42,116 bases of DNA from Gemmatimonadota bacterium (lineage in GTDB: Bacteria; Gemmatimonadota; Gemmatimonadetes; Gemmatimonadales; Gemmatimonadaceae), in contig JAJPIM010000033.1 of the NCBI GenBank assembly GCA_021324775.1, positions 1 to 42,116 of the forward strand, written 5' to 3'. Shown one piece after another: positions 1 to 10,144 of the stretch. Position 1 is the stretch's first letter; every line of letters begins with the position of its first letter. The position numbers and the translations under genes are program-made. The notes below the pieces were generated by a model, which was not told where the DNA came from, searched no databases, and was given only the letters and a program-made list of their open reading frames with translations.

Positions 1-622
1 AAAGCCACGCCCGAAGCGCGTCGCGCGCTCGCGCCGGCATGAGGCGGCTTCCGCGATGTCCGGAGGCACACGCCGCGCACACGATGCCGCCCATCGGATG
101 GCTGAATGGGAACCGCCCGTCGCGATCGACCGGCGCGTGGCATGCGCTGCACACATCGATCGTCGGTGCGAACCCCAGCTCCGCGACGATGTGCCACGCG
201 CCGGCAAGTGTCGCATCCAGGGCGCGCCCCGGCATGTCCGGCGCGGACGCGATCCCATCCAGAGCACCACCCACGGCGTCGTAGAGTCCCGGCTGCGCGT
301 CTTCCCGCGCGAACCGGAGTGCCAGCTCGGCGATCGCCGACGCCCCCGTGAATCGCTCGAGCGATTCCGCCAGCGCGGGGCGCGCGTGCGTCACGTCGAA
401 GGCAGTCAGCGTCTGCAGGTCTCGCGTCGGCCGCACCGACATCTGGGCCTCACCCTCGGCGAACAGGTCCGCGGCCGACCCGTGGCGTGATCGCGACCGG
501 CGCGCGCCTCTCGCCAGCGCGGACTGCAGGCCGGCCTCGCGAGTCAGCAGCCGGTAAATTCGTGACGTTTCGAGGTAGTCGAATGCGTGCAGCACGACTG
601 CATCGGTCACGAGAAGGGGCAT
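1..622 (-). CDS. recO: DNA repair protein RecO (partial, C-terminus beyond window)
   Basis: RecO helps RecR load RecA onto SSB-coated single-stranded DNA in the RecFOR recombination-repair pathway. The minus strand reads openly from an ATG at 622 to the window edge, giving about 207 residues. The N-terminus (MPLLVTDAVVLHAFDYLETS) fits the RecO OB fold, followed by the basic stretch ARGARRSRSR near residues 38-47. A four-cysteine zinc site is visible at C158/C161 and C182/C185, with the typical FPFSHPMGG segment between the pairs. Roughly 30-50 C-terminal residues should lie outside the window. An in-frame ATG at 649 would add nine residues; I prefer 622 because family members start near there. 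It lies 41 bp downstream of btuB on the same strand. Recognition is by sequence pattern; no database search was possible. Confidence 0.88.
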   Translation of the reverse strand, partial: MPLLVTDAVVLHAFDYLETSRIYRLLTREAGLQSALARGARRSRSRHGSAADLFAEGEAQMSVRPTRDLQTLTAFDVTHARPALAESLERFTGASAIAELALRFAREDAQPGLYDAVGGALDGIASAPDMPGRALDATLAGAWHIVAELGFAPTIDVCSACHAPVDRDGRFPFSHPMGGIVCAACASGHRGSRLMPARARDALRAWL

Positions 623-663
623 GCCGAAATGTAGCCGCGGCGCTTCCATGCCCTGCGGACGGT

Positions 664-2715
664 CTACCGCGTGACTTCGATCCGGCCTCCGACCAGCACG
701 GTCCGCCCCGGCGCCGCGTAGGTCGCGATCTCGTCGTAGTGACGGTTGAACACGTTCACGACGCGGGCCGTGAGACTCACGTTCGGCCCGTGCGCCGCCG
801 CCTGGAAGAGCCGGTAGTCACCGGTGAGGTCCCACGTCGTGTAGCCCGCGAGGACGACCCGGCTGTCGCTGTCGAAGTCGATGTCATCGCGTGTCCCGAC
901 GAAATGCGCCGTGACGCCGAATGACCCCTTGCTCGAGAGCGAGTGGCGGAACGTGCCGCTGAACTCGTGCGACGGCCGGCGAATCAGCCGGTCGCCGACG
1001 ATGTACTGGCCGGTCCCCGAGGTGTCGAACCCGACATCGGTCACGCGCGTGCGCAGGAAGGTGTACGCCAGGTTGAGGGAGGTCCCGGCGACCGGGCCGG
1101 CGAGAAATGCGAGTTCGACCCCGTCGGCCCGCGCACCCGCGACGTTCACGTAGTTGGTCGGGGTCGTCGTGCCGGGGAGAATGGTCGACACCGGCGTGTA
1201 GTCGACGATGTTCTCGAATAACTGATTGAAATAGGTACCGGACAGCGTCAGCCCCTGCCCGAACGGCGTCTCGCTGATGCCCGCCTCCCATCCGATCGAA
1301 TGTTCAGGGCGGAGCTTGGCGTTGCCGGAGTCGAACGGCACGGCCGAGAAGTTTTGCTCGAAGGTCGGCTCCTTGTACGCGCTGCCGAACGACGCGTGGA
1401 GCTGCCCGCCGGTGCCGATCGCGTAACCCAGGCCGACGCGATACGTGCCGTATGTGCCGAATGCGCTGTTGTCATCGAGTCGCACGCCCGCCGTGTACGA
1501 GGCGAGATTGCCGACGTTGCCGACCACCTGGGCGTACGCCGCGCCGATGCGCCGGAAGCGCGCCACAGGGGCGCCGATCGACGTGTCCACGCTCCCGCCG
1601 CCCAGGGCGAACTCATCGGACGAGCGGGTCCGGTTCGTCTGCCCCTCCTCGCCGCCGCCCGCGGTGAACACCGCACCAGCGATGTGCGCATCGAGCCGCG
1701 CATCGACCCCCACACGCTGGTCGACCTCACGCTGGAACGATTGCGAGAACGTGCTGTCGGTGATCGGTACGTCGGGTGGGTTGATGTCGGCGACATCCTG
1801 GCTGTTGGAGGTCAGGAGGATGTGCCCATCGAATACACGGCTGAACGAGTGCGCCGCGTCGAGCGCGAAGGACGAGCCTTCGTCACGACTGTACTGGTTG
1901 TGATCGACCGGCGTCCCGTCGCCCACCGTCGGGAAGTGATAGTCCATCGTGTGGTAGCGCGCCGTGAGTGCCGCGGACGTCGGGGTGTTCAGTCCGTAGT
2001 CGACCCGGCCCGACATCTCGCCGTTGAGCATCTGGTTGTTGAACGGCAGGATGCCGTTGGTCGACTGGCGATCGCCACCGGCGGAGTATCCGAAGGGGCC
2101 GAGTCCCCCGCTCACCGCGGCCGTACCATCGAGGGTGCTGTAGGTGCCGCCGTTGACGCCGAGGTATCCGGCGATCGGTCCGCTGCCCCGCACGGTGAAG
2201 ATCTGAATGACACCCGACATGGCATCCGATCCGTAGAGCACGCTCGATGGACCGCGCAGGATTTCGATGCGGTCGACGTTTGCCGTCGTGAGGTAGTCGA
2301 ACGAGAACGAGCCCCCCGGAAGGTTGAGCGGCACGCCATCGAGGAGGACTTTGACGTATCCGCTCTGGCCGCCGCGCATGAAGAGTGACGTCTGGCTCCC
2401 GAACGATCCGCTCTGGACGACCGTGGCGCCCGCGACGTCCTGCAGTGCTTCGGCGACGGTCGTGATCCCGCGAGCGCGAAGGTCCTCGCCCGTCAGGACC
2501 GTCGTCGATGCCGTCGGCACCGACTCCGCGATCGGCACCTTGGTCGCCGTCACGACGACCGGCGTCAGGGTCCCCGTATCGGAGACGGTCTGGGTGCGCG
2601 TCACCGGCTGGGTGTGGGTGGCCGACTGCGCCAGCGCAGCAGCGGAAACGACCGGAAGGGCGATGCACGCCGCAACGGCCGCGCGGGTCAGATATGAGAG
2701 GTGCGGTGCGGTCAT
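664..2715 (-). CDS. btuB: TonB-dependent outer-membrane receptor, BtuB-like (cobalamin)
   Basis: This is a 683-residue outer-membrane receptor that would import a large nutrient, here most likely vitamin B12, using TonB energy. The start at 2715 overlaps the btuD stop by 4 bp (ATGA), so the two are probably translationally coupled; longer in-frame starts would precede the signal peptide. Residues 1-30 form a signal peptide ending near ALAQS. A TonB-box-like TPVVVTATK follows, then a plug domain with the usual ITTVAEALQDVAG, FMRGG and IEILRGPSSVLYGSDAMSGV segments. The rest is an alternating-strand barrel with the typical C-terminal region. The cobalamin assignment rests on the operon: it is the last gene behind a cobalamin riboswitch and the btuFCD transporter. 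Sequence alone would also allow an iron-siderophore receptor. Confidence 0.88.
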   Translation of the reverse strand: MTAPHLSYLTRAAVAACIALPVVSAAALAQSATHTQPVTRTQTVSDTGTLTPVVVTATKVPIAESVPTASTTVLTGEDLRARGITTVAEALQDVAGATVVQSGSFGSQTSLFMRGGQSGYVKVLLDGVPLNLPGGSFSFDYLTTANVDRIEILRGPSSVLYGSDAMSGVIQIFTVRGSGPIAGYLGVNGGTYSTLDGTAAVSGGLGPFGYSAGGDRQSTNGILPFNNQMLNGEMSGRVDYGLNTPTSAALTARYHTMDYHFPTVGDGTPVDHNQYSRDEGSSFALDAAHSFSRVFDGHILLTSNSQDVADINPPDVPITDSTFSQSFQREVDQRVGVDARLDAHIAGAVFTAGGGEEGQTNRTRSSDEFALGGGSVDTSIGAPVARFRRIGAAYAQVVGNVGNLASYTAGVRLDDNSAFGTYGTYRVGLGYAIGTGGQLHASFGSAYKEPTFEQNFSAVPFDSGNAKLRPEHSIGWEAGISETPFGQGLTLSGTYFNQLFENIVDYTPVSTILPGTTTPTNYVNVAGARADGVELAFLAGPVAGTSLNLAYTFLRTRVTDVGFDTSGTGQYIVGDRLIRRPSHEFSGTFRHSLSSKGSFGVTAHFVGTRDDIDFDSDSRVVLAGYTTWDLTGDYRLFQAAAHGPNVSLTARVVNVFNRHYDEIATYAAPGRTVLVGGRIEVTR

Positions 2716-3533
2716 GTCTCCATGGGACGATGAACAGTAACAGGTGACGGCGCACGAAGCGGAATCAGCATCGGAGCGCCTACGGCAGGATCTCGCGCGA
2801 CGACGAGGGGCCAATCGTAAACCCGTTCCAGTATGCCACCCGTCATCACCGCGTTGGGCGGTCCCTGCGCGGCGATCGTGCCGGCATGCAGCAGTACCAC
2901 GTGCTGGGCGAATCGCGCGACCAGATTGAGCTGATGAGTGATGAGCAGCACGCCCATTCCGTCACGTGCGAGCTCCGCCAGCAGCTCGAATACCGCCATC
3001 TCGTGTCCCACGTCGAGGAAGGTCGTGGGCTCGTCGAGCACGAGCAGGCGCCCGCCCTGCGCCAGCGCTCGGGCGATCCGGACGCGCTGCCACTCGCCGC
3101 CGGATAACTCGTCCGTGTGGCGTTCGAGAAACCCGCCCACCCCGGCGCGCTCGACAGCCGCAGTCACGGCCCGGTCGCCTCCCGGGTCGCTCGTGCTCCA
3201 GACGCTCGCGTATGGAAACCGCCCCAGGGCGATGTACTCACGGACGGTCATCGGGAATGCAGGTTCTTCGCGCTGCGGGACGACCGCGGCCCGCCGCGCC
3301 GCATCGCGCAGTGACATCTGGCCGAGCGTCACGCCACCGATCGCGATGTCGCCTCCGGCCAGCGGCACGCGGCGCAGCAGCGCCTTCACCAGCGTGCTCT
3401 TGCCGCTGCCGTTCGGCCCGGTCACAGCAGTGATGTTCCCGCTCTGCGCCGCAAAGGTGACCCCGGCCACTGCCAGCCCCCCGGCGCCGGCGTAGCGCAC
3501 CCTGGCGTCGCGAAACTCGATGGCGGCGGTCAT
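2712..3533 (-). CDS. btuD: ABC transporter ATP-binding protein, cobalamin uptake (BtuD-like)
   Basis: This 273-residue cytoplasmic ATPase would drive B12 import through the adjacent permease. Walker A (GPNGSGKST) lies at residues 39-47, a Q-loop (VVPQREE) at about 84-90, the signature LSGGEWQR at 143-150, Walker B with catalytic glutamate (LLVLDEPT) at 163-170, and the H-loop histidine in LLITHQLN. The layout matches the FecE/BtuD/HmuV subfamily. It overlaps the permease gene upstream by 4 bp and btuB downstream by 4 bp. The subfamily also serves siderophores and haem; cobalamin specificity is inferred from the riboswitch that precedes the operon. Confidence 0.92.
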   Translation of the reverse strand: MTAAIEFRDARVRYAGAGGLAVAGVTFAAQSGNITAVTGPNGSGKSTLVKALLRRVPLAGGDIAIGGVTLGQMSLRDAARRAAVVPQREEPAFPMTVREYIALGRFPYASVWSTSDPGGDRAVTAAVERAGVGGFLERHTDELSGGEWQRVRIARALAQGGRLLVLDEPTTFLDVGHEMAVFELLAELARDGMGVLLITHQLNLVARFAQHVVLLHAGTIAAQGPPNAVMTGGILERVYDWPLVVARDPAVGAPMLIPLRAPSPVTVHRPMET

Positions 3534-4513
3534 GACCGCGCGGCCAGCCGCCGCAGTTGGAACAGGAAGAACGGGACGCCCAACAGCGCGGTCACCGCGC
3601 CAAGCGGCAGCTCGGCGGGCGGACGAACCGTGCGGGCCACGACGTCGGCACTGATCACCAGGGCCGCGCCTACTATGGCCGCTCCGCAGAGCAATGTCCG
3701 GTACTGGCGAAGTCCCGCCGCGCGCACCATGTGCGGCACGACCAGTCCGACGAATCCCACGAGCCCCGCAGCCGCGACCGTGGACGCCGCAAGCAGTGCC
3801 GCCGCCAGATAGGCCCGGCGGCTGGCCCGCTCGACGTCGACGCCGAGGGCCGCCGCGCCATCGTCACCGAGGGCCAGGGCATCGAGATCGCGCGCCCACA
3901 CGATCAGCGCGCCTCCCCCGATCACCACGTACGCCGCCAGCCACGTCACACGCTGCCACTCGGCTCCGTCGACGGAACCCATCATCCACCAGAGCGCCCC
4001 GCGCACGGATTCCGGCGGAGCGGTCGCGTAGGCGACCATGATCGCGGCGTTGGCGAAGGCCCCCACGACGACACCGGCCATCAGCAAGAGCCGCACATCG
4101 GCCCGCCCGCCGGCGATGCGGGCAATCGTCAGCACGAGAGCGGCCGCCCCCGCCGCTCCCGCGAACGCAGCGAGTGGCACCCCCACAACGGTATTCCAGT
4201 GGAACGCGATCGCCGCCACGGCGCCGACGGCCGCGCCCCCTGAGACGCCGAGCAGGTACGGCTCGGCGAGACCATTGCGCAGGGTGCCTTGCATTGCCGC
4301 GCCGCTCATGCCCAGTGCGGCGCCAACGAGGGCGGCGAGCGCCACGCGAGGGAGGCGGATCGCCTGAACGATCGTGACCGTGGTGGTATCGCCGTGCCCG
4401 GCGAGCGCCGCCCAGACGGCCGCCGGCGAGAGGCCCACTGGACCCAGGGCGACGCCCAGCAGCGCAGCCGCGGCGAGGCCGAGGGATGCGACGATCCAGA
4501 ATCTTGCACGCAC
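3530..4513 (-). CDS. btuC: FecCD-family ABC permease, cobalamin uptake (BtuC-like)
   Basis: This 327-residue inner-membrane permease of the BtuC/FecCD family would form, as a homodimer, the channel for B12 import. It is hydrophobic throughout, consistent with about ten membrane helices. Family landmarks are present: LPRVALAALVGAALGMSGAAMQG near residues 53-75, a GVSGGAAVG stretch shortly after, and FVGLVVPHMVR near residue 260. The stop overlaps the btuD start (ATGA), and the gene begins 64 bp downstream of btuF. The alternative, a siderophore permease, is made unlikely by the cobalamin riboswitch upstream of the operon. Confidence 0.92.
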   Translation of the reverse strand: MRARFWIVASLGLAAAALLGVALGPVGLSPAAVWAALAGHGDTTTVTIVQAIRLPRVALAALVGAALGMSGAAMQGTLRNGLAEPYLLGVSGGAAVGAVAAIAFHWNTVVGVPLAAFAGAAGAAALVLTIARIAGGRADVRLLLMAGVVVGAFANAAIMVAYATAPPESVRGALWWMMGSVDGAEWQRVTWLAAYVVIGGGALIVWARDLDALALGDDGAAALGVDVERASRRAYLAAALLAASTVAAAGLVGFVGLVVPHMVRAAGLRQYRTLLCGAAIVGAALVISADVVARTVRPPAELPLGAVTALLGVPFFLFQLRRLAARS

Positions 4514-4577
4514 GGCTCAGCGCACCACGTCGCGTGGCACCTGATGTAATACGTGAGGTGCCGGCCCAGAGGTCATC

Positions 4578-5516
4578 TCAGTGCACCACGCCAGGGTGGA
4601 GCAGACCCACCAGCTCGGCCGCGGCGGCTCCCATGCGGACGGACGGCATGCCAACGAGCGCCGTGTCGGGCACGAGCACCCGGTGTCCACTGTCCGCGAG
4701 CCAGCGCTGCCAGCGCGGATCGCTCCGCATCGCGCGCACCGTTGCGCCGGTGGTGAGCACGACCGAGGGGTTTCGGCGGAGCAGGTCTTCGAGCGACACC
4801 TGCGGGGCGGGATCGGACATCGCGCCGTACACGTTGTGGGCGCCGGCATCGGCAAGCAGGTCGTTGAGGTAGCTGCCACCGCCGATGACTCGGAGCGGCG
4901 CGATTTCGACGGGCCACACGACACTCACCGGCGCGAGGCCGGCTGTCGACGCGCGCACTCTGGCGAGCGACGCCGTCACCGAGTCATCCACCGCCCGCGC
5001 CGCCGCGCTGTCGTGCAGCGCCGCCCCGAGCAGCGAGAGGATGCGGTGGAAGTCGGCGAGCCGGTCCTCCCGCACGCTGAGGGTCGCGACCCCGGCTGCC
5101 TTGAGACGGCCAACCGCATCGCGGTTGTCGGCGGCGGCGTACAGCAGCACCAGATCCGGGTGCACGGACAGGACCGCTTCCACGTTGGGTCTCAGGCCGT
5201 TGCCCAGGTCCGCGACCGGGAGCGCCGCGGGCGGATAGGTGTCCCACCGCGTCCGTCCGACGACATGGTTCCCCTGCCCCATCGCGAACAGCATCTCGGT
5301 GGTCGCCGGATTGAGCGAGACGATGCGACGAGGCGGACCGCTCGGCGTGCGAAGGGTGTCGCCGAAGTCATCCACGATGGCTTTGGCCACTGGAGGGCTG
5401 TCGGCATTCGAGAGCGGGCGGCGGGCAGCCGGCGGTGAGCCGCTGCCGCACGCGGCCAGCGCCGCGAGCGAGAGCGCCGTGCTGGCCGGTACGGCGATGC
5501 GGCGGGCGAACGCCAC
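4578..5516 (-). CDS. btuF: Cobalamin-binding lipoprotein of the ABC importer (BtuF-like)
   Basis: This 312-residue periplasmic substrate-binding protein delivers B12 to BtuCD. The N-terminus has a basic start, a hydrophobic stretch and a lipobox (LAALAAC followed by GSG), so it is probably a lipoprotein. The TroA/BtuF-type fold is indicated by RIVSLNPATTEMLFAMG, WDTYPP, the linker region around PDLVLL, and GGGSYLNDLLADAGAHNVYG in the second lobe. The start is GTG at 5516, with a purine-rich ribosome site (GGGGGAGGG) just upstream. It is the first gene after the cobalamin riboswitch, which supports the substrate. Related iron-chelate binding proteins share the fold. Confidence 0.88.
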   Translation of the reverse strand: MAFARRIAVPASTALSLAALAACGSGSPPAARRPLSNADSPPVAKAIVDDFGDTLRTPSGPPRRIVSLNPATTEMLFAMGQGNHVVGRTRWDTYPPAALPVADLGNGLRPNVEAVLSVHPDLVLLYAAADNRDAVGRLKAAGVATLSVREDRLADFHRILSLLGAALHDSAAARAVDDSVTASLARVRASTAGLAPVSVVWPVEIAPLRVIGGGSYLNDLLADAGAHNVYGAMSDPAPQVSLEDLLRRNPSVVLTTGATVRAMRSDPRWQRWLADSGHRVLVPDTALVGMPSVRMGAAAAELVGLLHPGVVH

Positions 5517-5532
5517 GAGCCCTCCCCCGAGG
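5517..5532 (-). promoter_or_regulatory. btuF ribosome-binding site within a small hairpin
   Basis: On the minus strand, CCTC (5532-5529), loop GGGG, then GAGG (5524-5521) can form a short stem containing the purine-rich ribosome site of btuF, 4-5 nt before its GTG start. It sits 27 nt downstream of the riboswitch core, so ligand control of translation initiation through this stem is possible. The stem has only four base pairs, so its role is an inference. Confidence 0.4.
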
Positions 5533-5554
5533 ACTGTGAGTGTGGCGCGGATGG

Positions 5555-5709
5555 TGAGCGTCTACTGGCTCCAGGCCGCGTCGCTCGCCTTCCCAATGCC
5601 ATGCGGCATCAGTGGCACATCCGAGCTCGCGTCGTGCCCGATACAGTGGCGGGGCCGCGCCGGCATTGCACCGGCTTCCGGTCTCACCGTCCGCGATCGT
5701 TCAGTTGGT
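5555..5709 (-). ncRNA. Cobalamin riboswitch
   Basis: Read on the minus strand, the leader of the btu operon contains the conserved cobalamin-aptamer elements in the right order. These are GGTGAGACCGGAAGCCGGTG, then AATGCCGGCGCGGCCCCGCC and CACTGTA (B12-box-like, 5641-5652). Next come GAGCTCGGATGTGCCACTG (second GCCACTG at 5605-5616), a small ATGCCGCATGGCAT hairpin, GGGAAGGCGAG (5584-5594), and the closing GAGCCAGTAGACG (5559-5571). This matches the known cobalamin riboswitch consensus closely. In this family, cobalamin binding lowers expression of downstream B12 uptake genes. The first gene downstream is btuF. Boundaries are approximate; class (adenosyl- or hydroxo-/methylcobalamin) cannot be settled by eye, although the large peripheral hairpin suggests the adenosyl type. 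Confidence 0.93.
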
Positions 5710-5715
5710 TGCGCG

Positions 5716-5744
5716 AATCTACCCCTTGGATTCTACGCCGGCAA
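5716..5744 (-). promoter_or_regulatory. Putative sigma-70 promoter of the btu operon
   Basis: On the minus strand, TTGCCG (5744-5739) and TAGATT (5721-5716) are separated by 17 bp, each matching the -35 and -10 consensus at four of six positions. The expected start near 5709 would begin just before the riboswitch. The elements overlap the 3' end of the upstream gene, whose stop is at 5719-5721. Confidence 0.5.
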
Positions 5745-6834
5745 GCGGTAGCACGGGACGCGGGCGCCGCGTGAATGCGCGGGCCAGCGCGCCGAGCATC
5801 GCCGCGCCGATCGCCGTCAGCACCAGTGCGAAGTACAGCGTGCGGCGGTCGCCGATGATGACGGGCACGATCACCCGTGCCGCACTACCGGCCGGCACAT
5901 CCTGTGCGATGAACCGCCGGAATGTCCGCCCCTGGATCGACACTGGGTCCACCTCGCGGAGCCGCGGCGCTTCCGCCCGGGCCGCCGGTTCCTCGAGCAG
6001 GATCTCCATCACCGATACCTGGCCTGCGGACGGCCGCGCCAGTGGAAACGCCGACGACGGGAGCGTATACGTGAACGAGATCTGCTTCAATCCTGGAGCG
6101 ATCGGCGCGAAGATCTCGAAATCGCTGTGCACGACCGTGACCGCGTCCGCCGACATGTCGCCCTGGCCGACACGGACGCCCTCTGCCCCTGGCGGAATGC
6201 TCGTGTGCCATGTCGGCCGGTCGCCTGACGCGGCTGGGGACACGAGGGTGACCGACGAATCGTTGGAGAGCTCGAAGACCTCGACCACCGTCCGCGATCC
6301 GCCGGCGCCCGGCGCCGACACGATCAGATGGCGGCCCCGGATCTGGATGGGGACGTGTTGGGACGTCGTATCGAACACGGTGATCTCGGCATCCGGGCCG
6401 CGCGTCACGGGCTGGACGAGCGGCTGCGAGAAATACGCGATGCCGTCGTAGCTCGCCGAGACGAAATACACGGCGTCGCTGGCGCCGCGCGGCTGATACC
6501 GAAACATGAACTGGCCGCTCGCATCGGTGCGGAGCGAATCCATAGGGCCGGCCGTATCGGAGCCCACACGGTGAAGTGTGACCCACGTGTCCGCGAGCGC
6601 GGTCGCGGTGTGCGGCCCCTGATGGACGACCCGGCCGTAGACGCGCCTCGCCGCCGGCGGTGCGCCGGATGTGCCGCGCGGTACTACAGCCGTCGTCGCC
6701 GGGTCCGCGCCCTGTCCGGCACCCGGTGCGGCATTCTGGGCGGATGCGCTGCGAGCGGAGGAGCCGATCAGACCACACACGCCCAATGCGAGCCACAGAC
6801 ACCGCGTCCGGCCCCGCGTGAGTCTGCCGGACAT
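5719..6834 (-). CDS. Secreted, C-terminally membrane-anchored protein of unknown function
   Basis: This protein of about 371 residues has no assigned function. The N-terminus (after ATG 6834) is a signal peptide ending near SARSASAQN. Next comes a Ser/Ala/Pro-rich linker. A carboxypeptidase-regulatory-like beta domain follows, with VYGRVVHQ, TWVTLHRVG and TDASGQFMFRYQP segments near residues 60-125. Several beta-rich segments come after it. A single C-terminal membrane helix (about LYFALVLTAIGAAMLGALA) is followed by a basic tail. The topology suggests a periplasmic domain held to the inner membrane. It follows the bifunctional-nuclease gene by 28 bp. The ribosome site is unclear: AGGGGA sits directly against the ATG, and an in-frame GTG at 6849 is an alternative start. 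Confidence 0.75.
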   Translation of the reverse strand: MSGRLTRGRTRCLWLALGVCGLIGSSARSASAQNAAPGAGQGADPATTAVVPRGTSGAPPAARRVYGRVVHQGPHTATALADTWVTLHRVGSDTAGPMDSLRTDASGQFMFRYQPRGASDAVYFVSASYDGIAYFSQPLVQPVTRGPDAEITVFDTTSQHVPIQIRGRHLIVSAPGAGGSRTVVEVFELSNDSSVTLVSPAASGDRPTWHTSIPPGAEGVRVGQGDMSADAVTVVHSDFEIFAPIAPGLKQISFTYTLPSSAFPLARPSAGQVSVMEILLEEPAARAEAPRLREVDPVSIQGRTFRRFIAQDVPAGSAARVIVPVIIGDRRTLYFALVLTAIGAAMLGALARAFTRRPRPVLPLAGVESKG

Positions 6835-6862
6835 TCCCCTCGCGAGCACGCTGTGGGGCGGC

Positions 6863-7381
6863 TTACAGGTTGAACTTTCCGAAGTCTTCAGGGCGCAGGT
6901 TCTCGAGGTACGCCTTGAGCTGGTCCGCGGAGAGCTCTTCCGCACTCGGCGCGTCCTGATCCGCCGGCGTGAGCTCGTCGGCTCCCTCTTCGTCCGCGAC
7001 CGCGGTCAGCAGGGCCTCCGGCGCGAAGATCGGCGCCGCCATCCGCAAGGCGATCGCTATGCTGTCGGAGGGACGCGCGTCCACGTGCACCACGCCCTCG
7101 GCGCGTACGACGTGCATCTCCGCGTAGTAGGTGCTCTTCTGCACTTTGGTGATCTGGACGCGTCGCAGTGTGCCGCCGAGTCCGACGATGAGGCTCTTGC
7201 ACAGGTCGTGGGTCAGCGGTCGTTCCCGCCGGACCTGTTTCATCTCCATGATGATCGACTCTGCCTCGGCCGGACCGATCCAGATCGGGAGAAGGCGGTT
7301 GCCGCCCTTCTCCCGGAGGATCACGACGTGGCTGTTGTTCGAGCTGTCCACTCCCAGGCGCTCGACGAACACTTCGACCAT
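6863..7381 (-). CDS. Bifunctional nuclease domain (BFN/DUF151) protein
   Basis: This 172-residue protein belongs to the BFN family, whose plant founder was reported to cut both DNA and RNA. The role of the bacterial members is not settled. The family core is clear: VEVFVERLGVDSSNNSHVVI at the N-terminus, then LPIWIGPAEAESIIMEM, RPLTHDLCKSLI and ARPSDSIAIALRM. A short acidic C-terminal tail follows. The ATG at 7381 was chosen because homology begins there. The reading frame stays open upstream through the 97-bp gap to ahcY, but that stretch has no family character. An inverted repeat (GTCCCG...CGGGAC, 7447-7468) lies in the gap, without a T-run. Confidence 0.85.
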   Translation of the reverse strand: MVEVFVERLGVDSSNNSHVVILREKGGNRLLPIWIGPAEAESIIMEMKQVRRERPLTHDLCKSLIVGLGGTLRRVQITKVQKSTYYAEMHVVRAEGVVHVDARPSDSIAIALRMAAPIFAPEALLTAVADEEGADELTPADQDAPSAEELSADQLKAYLENLRPEDFGKFNL

Positions 7382-7478
7382 GATGCCGTCACGCCCCAGC
7401 GCGGCCCGGACCGGCAGGCCGTTGGCCAGCGGGCTCCGGTCCACGCGTCCCGCGCGCGGACCCGGGACGGCGCACCGG

Positions 7479-10144
<2,666 letters not shown>

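Follow-up and report, generated by a model that had tools for sequence, protein, structure and literature searches.

A cobalamin riboswitch predicted to block the btuF start through its P13 hairpin, behind a stop-codon promoter, in a Gemmatimonadaceae genome

The locus described here poses the question of how a bacterium of the Gemmatimonadaceae controls a four-gene transporter operon, at the level of transcription or of translation, and from which promoter. The window, as we call the whole stretch of DNA analysed, is 42,116 bases long, and RF00174 (Cobalamin) is its sole Rfam match above the gathering threshold. A preliminary description of this DNA had placed a cobalamin aptamer in the leader of the btu genes and proposed a covariance-model check, which was passed in our Rfam search: the match covers model positions 1–189 of 189, at 68.7 bits against a gathering score of 31.5 (Table 1). 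The span then given to the leader, 5555–5744, takes in the promoter, stops 17 nt short of where the aptamer match ends, and leaves the expression platform, which reaches down to 5510, wholly outside. As in the known class, there is a full-length aptamer with a C-run in L5, a G-run in L13 and B12 transport genes downstream, and the aptamer shows no evident difference; a P13 hairpin with an L13 complementary to L5, a mark of membership in RF00174, is also present. The aptamer is that of a known riboswitch class and is itself ordinary. We regard it as confirmed, as predicted regulation, that this bacterium puts its B12 uptake genes under a B12-sensing riboswitch.

Table 1. Features of the btu locus, in positions of the window
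Feature	Positions	Strand	Basis
ORF of 408 aa (upstream gene), without a Pfam or NCBIfam hit	5719..6945	-	family search, tblastn in relatives
-35 box TTGCCG, within last codons of upstream gene	5739..5744	-	sequence; TTG conserved, 17-bp spacing
-10 box TAGATT, overlaps stop codon	5716..5721	-	sequence; conservation among relatives
Putative transcript start region AACCAACTGA	5701..5710	-	inference; ACAAYYGA in relatives
Cobalamin riboswitch aptamer, RF00174	5538..5704	-	68.7 bits, E 5e-15
L5 segment GCGGCCCCGCC, kissing-loop partner, CCCC	5648..5658	-	L5-L13 descriptions in parts of PMC9600662 and PMC10653944
P13 hairpin, expression platform	5510..5548	-	covariation, fold
Shine-Dalgarno GGAGG of btuF, in P13 3' arm	5521..5525	-	sequence, fold
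btuF, B12-binding lipoprotein, GTG start	4578..5516	-	family models, only in-frame start
btuC, FecCD permease	3530..4513	-	PF01032 280.7 bits; top NCBIfam hits BtuC, below cut-off
btuD, ABC ATPase, ATGA overlap with btuC	2712..3533	-	family models
btuB-like TonB receptor, listed ORF start TTG 2814	664..2814	-	TonB-B12 best family, below cut-off

The gene order read earlier from the sequence (lipoprotein, permease, ATPase, TonB receptor) was borne out as F-C-D-B, and for the btuB-like gene an ATG at 2715, overlapping the btuD stop, is a likelier start than the listed TTG. None of the four transport proteins reached the NCBIfam equivalog cut-offs for B12 uptake (BtuBFCD): BtuF scored 80.8 of the 234 bits needed with the B12 family, BtuC 236.7 of 461 with its best family, and the receptor 236.3 of 599.7 with the TonB-B12 family, while the top family of the ATPase was heme ABC (212.3 bits), with the corrinoid ATPase family only third (204.7 of 537 bits). 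B12 families rank first for the other three (BtuF, BtuC, TonB-B12). The btu names rest on best family, gene order and riboswitch, and are to be taken as likely function and not as cut-off membership. Likewise, the riboswitch likely fixes the substrate of four transporter genes that the family models leave open; its use as substrate evidence in the preliminary description was fair, given that no protein passes a B12 cut-off.

This substrate reading agrees with what is found in relatives, where RF00174 is present in 55 of 60 genomes and btuF-C-D occur in order in 47 of 60 fetched loci (F-C-D-B in 37 of 60, an undercount for btuB since the stretches end at ~7 kb or at contig ends). A BtuC profile search with 80 kept named loci returned Gemmatimonadota, mostly Gemmatimonadaceae (two are titled only 'bacterium'), and a plasmid search gave only ATPases at <60% identity. 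The window's genome encodes MetH (1125.7 bits) and NrdJ (639.2 bits), both over cut-off; in the same genome, which is 98% complete, CbiC had no match and CobI/CbiL only a sub-threshold one. At that completeness the host is likely a B12 auxotroph, and with MetH and NrdJ present and CbiC absent, B12 uptake probably matters to it.

Comparative analysis of the leader used 112 loci. Those lacking an anchor (11 of 80 named loci, 2 of 62 genome loci) and 17 duplicates were set aside beforehand; alignment A2 holds the 107 distinct sequences among the 112. L5 is CCCC in 105 of the 112 loci and UCCC in the remaining 7, and L13 is mostly GGGG, as it is in the window (5528–5525), complementary to the CCCC of L5. 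Being near-invariant, L5 offers little variation from which covariation in a kissing loop could be read. A short capped hairpin after GCCACUG was considered as L5, which would preclude the kissing loop, and was rejected in favour of the GCGGCCCCGCC loop.

Directly 3' of the aptamer, nearly all loci carry CGCCAC-n-CCCTC-GGGG-GAGGG-n-GTGGCG in some form, the P13 hairpin, whose helices in the window are GCGCCAC/GTGGCGT (outer) and AGTCCTC/GAGGGCT (inner). The inner helix is paired in 95.9% of alignment cells, and its covariation of 0.224, compared to 0.115 after shuffling, was equalled by none of 500 shuffles and lies above all slides; its first pair occurs as CG, UA, GC and AU. For the outer helix the values are 86.1% paired and 0.179 against 0.138, again with 0/500 shuffles as high and above all slides, and its pair-type count is not exceptional (171/500 shuffles as high). 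Minimum-energy folding gave a structure with P13 for 102 of 111 loci. The consensus fold that RNAalifold computed from this alignment (-0.73 kcal/mol) lacks the hairpin.

In the window, the GTG at 5516 is the only in-frame start of btuF and sits, paired in the fold, within the P13 outer helix. No intrinsic terminator was found within ~170 nt after P13. A ribosome site and start codon lie in a hairpin beside the aptamer without a terminator, as is characteristic of a translational platform; the preliminary description lacked a mode of control, and P13 with the btuF ribosome site and start codon is what we add to it here. In the ligand-free fold of the leader the ribosome site is already paired, freeing it costs 15.2 kcal/mol, and no ON-state structure emerged from plain folding. 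The P13 outer pairs reach probabilities of only 0.13–0.21 in the plain fold, where GUGGCG at the btuF start (5516–5511) pairs with CGCCAC of the aptamer core (5651–5646). This alternative pairing is possibly an extra switch.

The same hairpin appears to have two different outputs among the relatives. A terminator-like hairpin scoring at least 30 follows P13 in 63 of the 112 loci, with btuF beginning further on; only this threshold was used, as the detector is permissive (102/112 loci at any score) and was run without a shuffled control. In 53 of these 63 loci, the loop and 3' arm of P13 pair with the 5' arm of the terminator above the shuffle mean (Wilcoxon 1.4e-8 with loci counted irrespective of kinship; 14/63 individually <0.05). 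Such an antiterminator arrangement was shown by mutation for metE of Priestia megaterium, according to the available part of PMC10653944. By contrast, among the 100 loci that had a BtuF match, reading by hand placed the btuF start inside P13 in eight, of which the window is one; the criteria were an in-frame start in P13, a distance of at most 204 and no terminator of at least 30. Locus L082 fits in frame and distance and was excluded for a terminator score of 31.0; L053, at 23.8, was kept.

On the BtuC tree (100 rows, with seven of the eight cases), the start-in-P13 arrangement requires at least four changes, every one of which is imposed by branches with good support; the window is its lone case in the genus as represented there by two further genomes. 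P13 and BtuF lie 204 nt apart in the window; in these two genomes the figures are 339 and 365, an excess of 135 and 161 nt. In G002 no terminator was detected, and in G001 a hairpin of 12 pairs, whose T run is poor, is visible by eye but was skipped by the detector; the terminator may therefore have been decaying in the genus before it was lost. Judged from this one assembly, the lineage of the window most likely lost ~140–160 nt, such that btuF now starts in P13, and the genome seems to have switched its riboswitch from a transcription stop to a ribosome block. We also considered the P13 GTG as a leader-peptide start in relatives of the terminator type. There, the GTG does not hold a constant frame relative to btuF, and the open stretch from it spans 3 to >300 codons; its pairing in P13 is thus a better explanation than a leader peptide.

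A promoter with 17-bp spacing, lying over the stop codon of the previous gene, had also been described, and both points held up. The boxes TTGCCG and TAGATT are 17 bp apart, and the TAG stop codon (5721–5719) of the 408-aa ORF supplies the opening three bases of the -10 box. The match to a TTGACA/TATAAT-like consensus is weak (4+4 of 12 bases), and a scan requiring 9 of 12 over positions 1–8000 returned no sites. The promoter is supported by its conservation in relatives, and not by its consensus score. The upstream gene was found by tblastn in 96 of the 112 loci, and the 90 in which it ends no more than 260 nt from the end of the B12 box were used. TTG exactly 17 bp ahead of the -10 box occurs in 74 of these, as does TA-nnn-T starting on the upstream stop codon; both boxes are found together in 72/90, compared to 2/453 other gene ends of the same loci (Fisher 1e-69, for loci that are not independent). 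The upstream stop is TAG or TAA in 79/90 loci, as opposed to TGA in 357/453 other gene ends, and the final T of the -10 box is retained despite lying past the stop codon, in noncoding DNA. Searched genome-wide, the motif showed little enrichment (15 matches, and 10 with the pattern reversed); another control pattern gave 0 matches and its reverse 4.

Downstream of the boxes, ACAAYYGA occurs in 67/112 loci and in 0/112 control stretches, starting 6 or 7 nt after the -10 box in 41 of the 48 loci with readable spacing. The copy in the window deviates at one base and was not counted in the 67. No clear peak emerged when a pairing partner for the element was sought in the leader, and its position suggests that it probably marks the transcript start.

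Taken together, we consider it quite probable that B12, when bound, fixes P13 in place and so keeps ribosomes from translating btuF, in an operon with its own promoter and a P13 start acquired by loss. The btuF-C-D-B transcript would begin at this promoter, which overlaps the 3' end of the preceding gene, with the aptamer first. Once cobalamin is bound, the CCCC of L5 would kiss the GGGG of L13 and P13 would be held, sequestering the ribosome-binding site and GTG and lowering btuF translation, and the reduction would spread to later genes through ATGA overlaps. When B12 is scarce, P13 would be accessible to ribosomes and the uptake system produced. The ligand response, the kissing loop, the OFF direction and the coupling to btuC-D-B are what we infer.

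It may be that the riboswitch in the window still acts mainly on transcription, through Rho when btuF is untranslated or through a terminator too weak to detect. The terminator-like hairpins of most relatives and their pairing with the P13 3' arm, as in the portion of PMC10653944 on P. megaterium metE, speak for this, and the accessible text of PMC11260477 takes up the coupling of Rho to control by B12 riboswitches. We nevertheless hold it unlikely, as the ~170 nt past P13, where btuF has already started, lack an intrinsic terminator. Somewhat more doubtful is the view that the promoter match arises only from conservation of the upstream protein's C-terminus, and that btu is read through from the metK-ahcY side. 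The upstream genes are indeed closely spaced and on the same strand, and the low consensus score, the negative scan and the 15 versus 10 matches genome-wide point the same way. The preference for TAG/TAA, the exact 17-bp placement of TTG and the retained noncoding T speak against this view, as do the boxes (TTGCGT and TACCTT) in front of the second riboswitch of this genome, which has a different neighbour gene. That the operon imports another corrinoid, a siderophore or heme, with cobalamin sensed merely as a signal, we find very improbable. Scores below the B12 cut-offs and an ATPase closest to heme ABC would fit such an operon; against it stand the first rank of B12 families for three of four proteins, the co-occurrence of the riboswitch with btuF-C-D in 47/60 fetched loci, and a genome with B12-dependent enzymes and no CbiC match.

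With translational block as the preferred reading, the locus can be set beside known systems. The E. coli btuB riboswitch governs the single btuB gene, whereas here there are a four-gene operon and a stop-codon promoter. Translational control of a B12 uptake gene (predicted here) is shared, inhibition of ribosome binding in E. coli being stated in the part of PMC2258182 at hand. With P. megaterium metE, as far as the available part of PMC10653944 describes it, the window's relatives share P13, the pairing between the P13 3' arm and the terminator 5' arm and, by inference, the L5-L13 kissing loop; the window differs in having no terminator and in carrying ribosome site and start codon in P13. 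In metE and ppe2 of M. tuberculosis, as covered by an excerpt of PMC11260477, the start region is likewise hidden when ligand is bound (predicted for the window) and L13 lies near the start, but those two riboswitches rely on distinct anti-start sequences and on uORFs, unlike the btuF start in P13 itself. Searches by title and abstract found no paper treating the btu locus and little riboswitch work in Gemmatimonadota, and no recognised match for promoters overlapping stop codons, of which single cases may exist in print.

In this locus, a riboswitch of known class shows an instructive change of platform and stands behind a stop-codon promoter. The relatives form a natural series in which one hairpin works now with a terminator, now with a ribosome site, which makes the evolution of riboswitch output testable with close pairs. 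The promoter, for its part, cleanly illustrates a stop codon under selection for transcription. To a joint reading we give an even chance: across the Gemmatimonadaceae, a btu promoter embedded in the upstream gene, one triplet serving both as its stop and as the opening half of the -10 box, with TAG replacing the preferred TGA, together with an orphan P13 ribosome site and GTG in terminator-type relatives that terminator loss has repeatedly joined to btuF, converting a transcription switch to a translation switch.

Several further features of these loci were observed. Upstream of btu on the same strand, as is the upstream gene in 41 of 47 btuF-C-D loci, lie the 408-aa ORF, a gene for a bifunctional-nuclease-domain protein, adenosylhomocysteinase (ahcY) and a further ORF that, by its sequence, is likely S-adenosylmethionine synthetase (metK), the set spanning 10144–5719 on the minus strand and recurring in part in many relatives. 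Such a neighbourhood would connect B12 uptake with the SAM cycle, in which methionine synthase depends on B12. The 408-aa protein, for all its lack of a family match, is conserved beside btu across the family. The window's genome carries RF00174 twice; the second copy (42.5 bits; C29:50101-49919, minus; L033 8102-7920) precedes a 753-aa TonB-receptor-like ORF, has GAGG as L13 and a strong terminator-like hairpin, and shares the ACAACTGA start element. In one relative (G010, locus L044, ~7147–7639), two cobalamin riboswitches point apart with ~100 bp between them, one facing btuF-C-D and the other a TonB-receptor-like gene.
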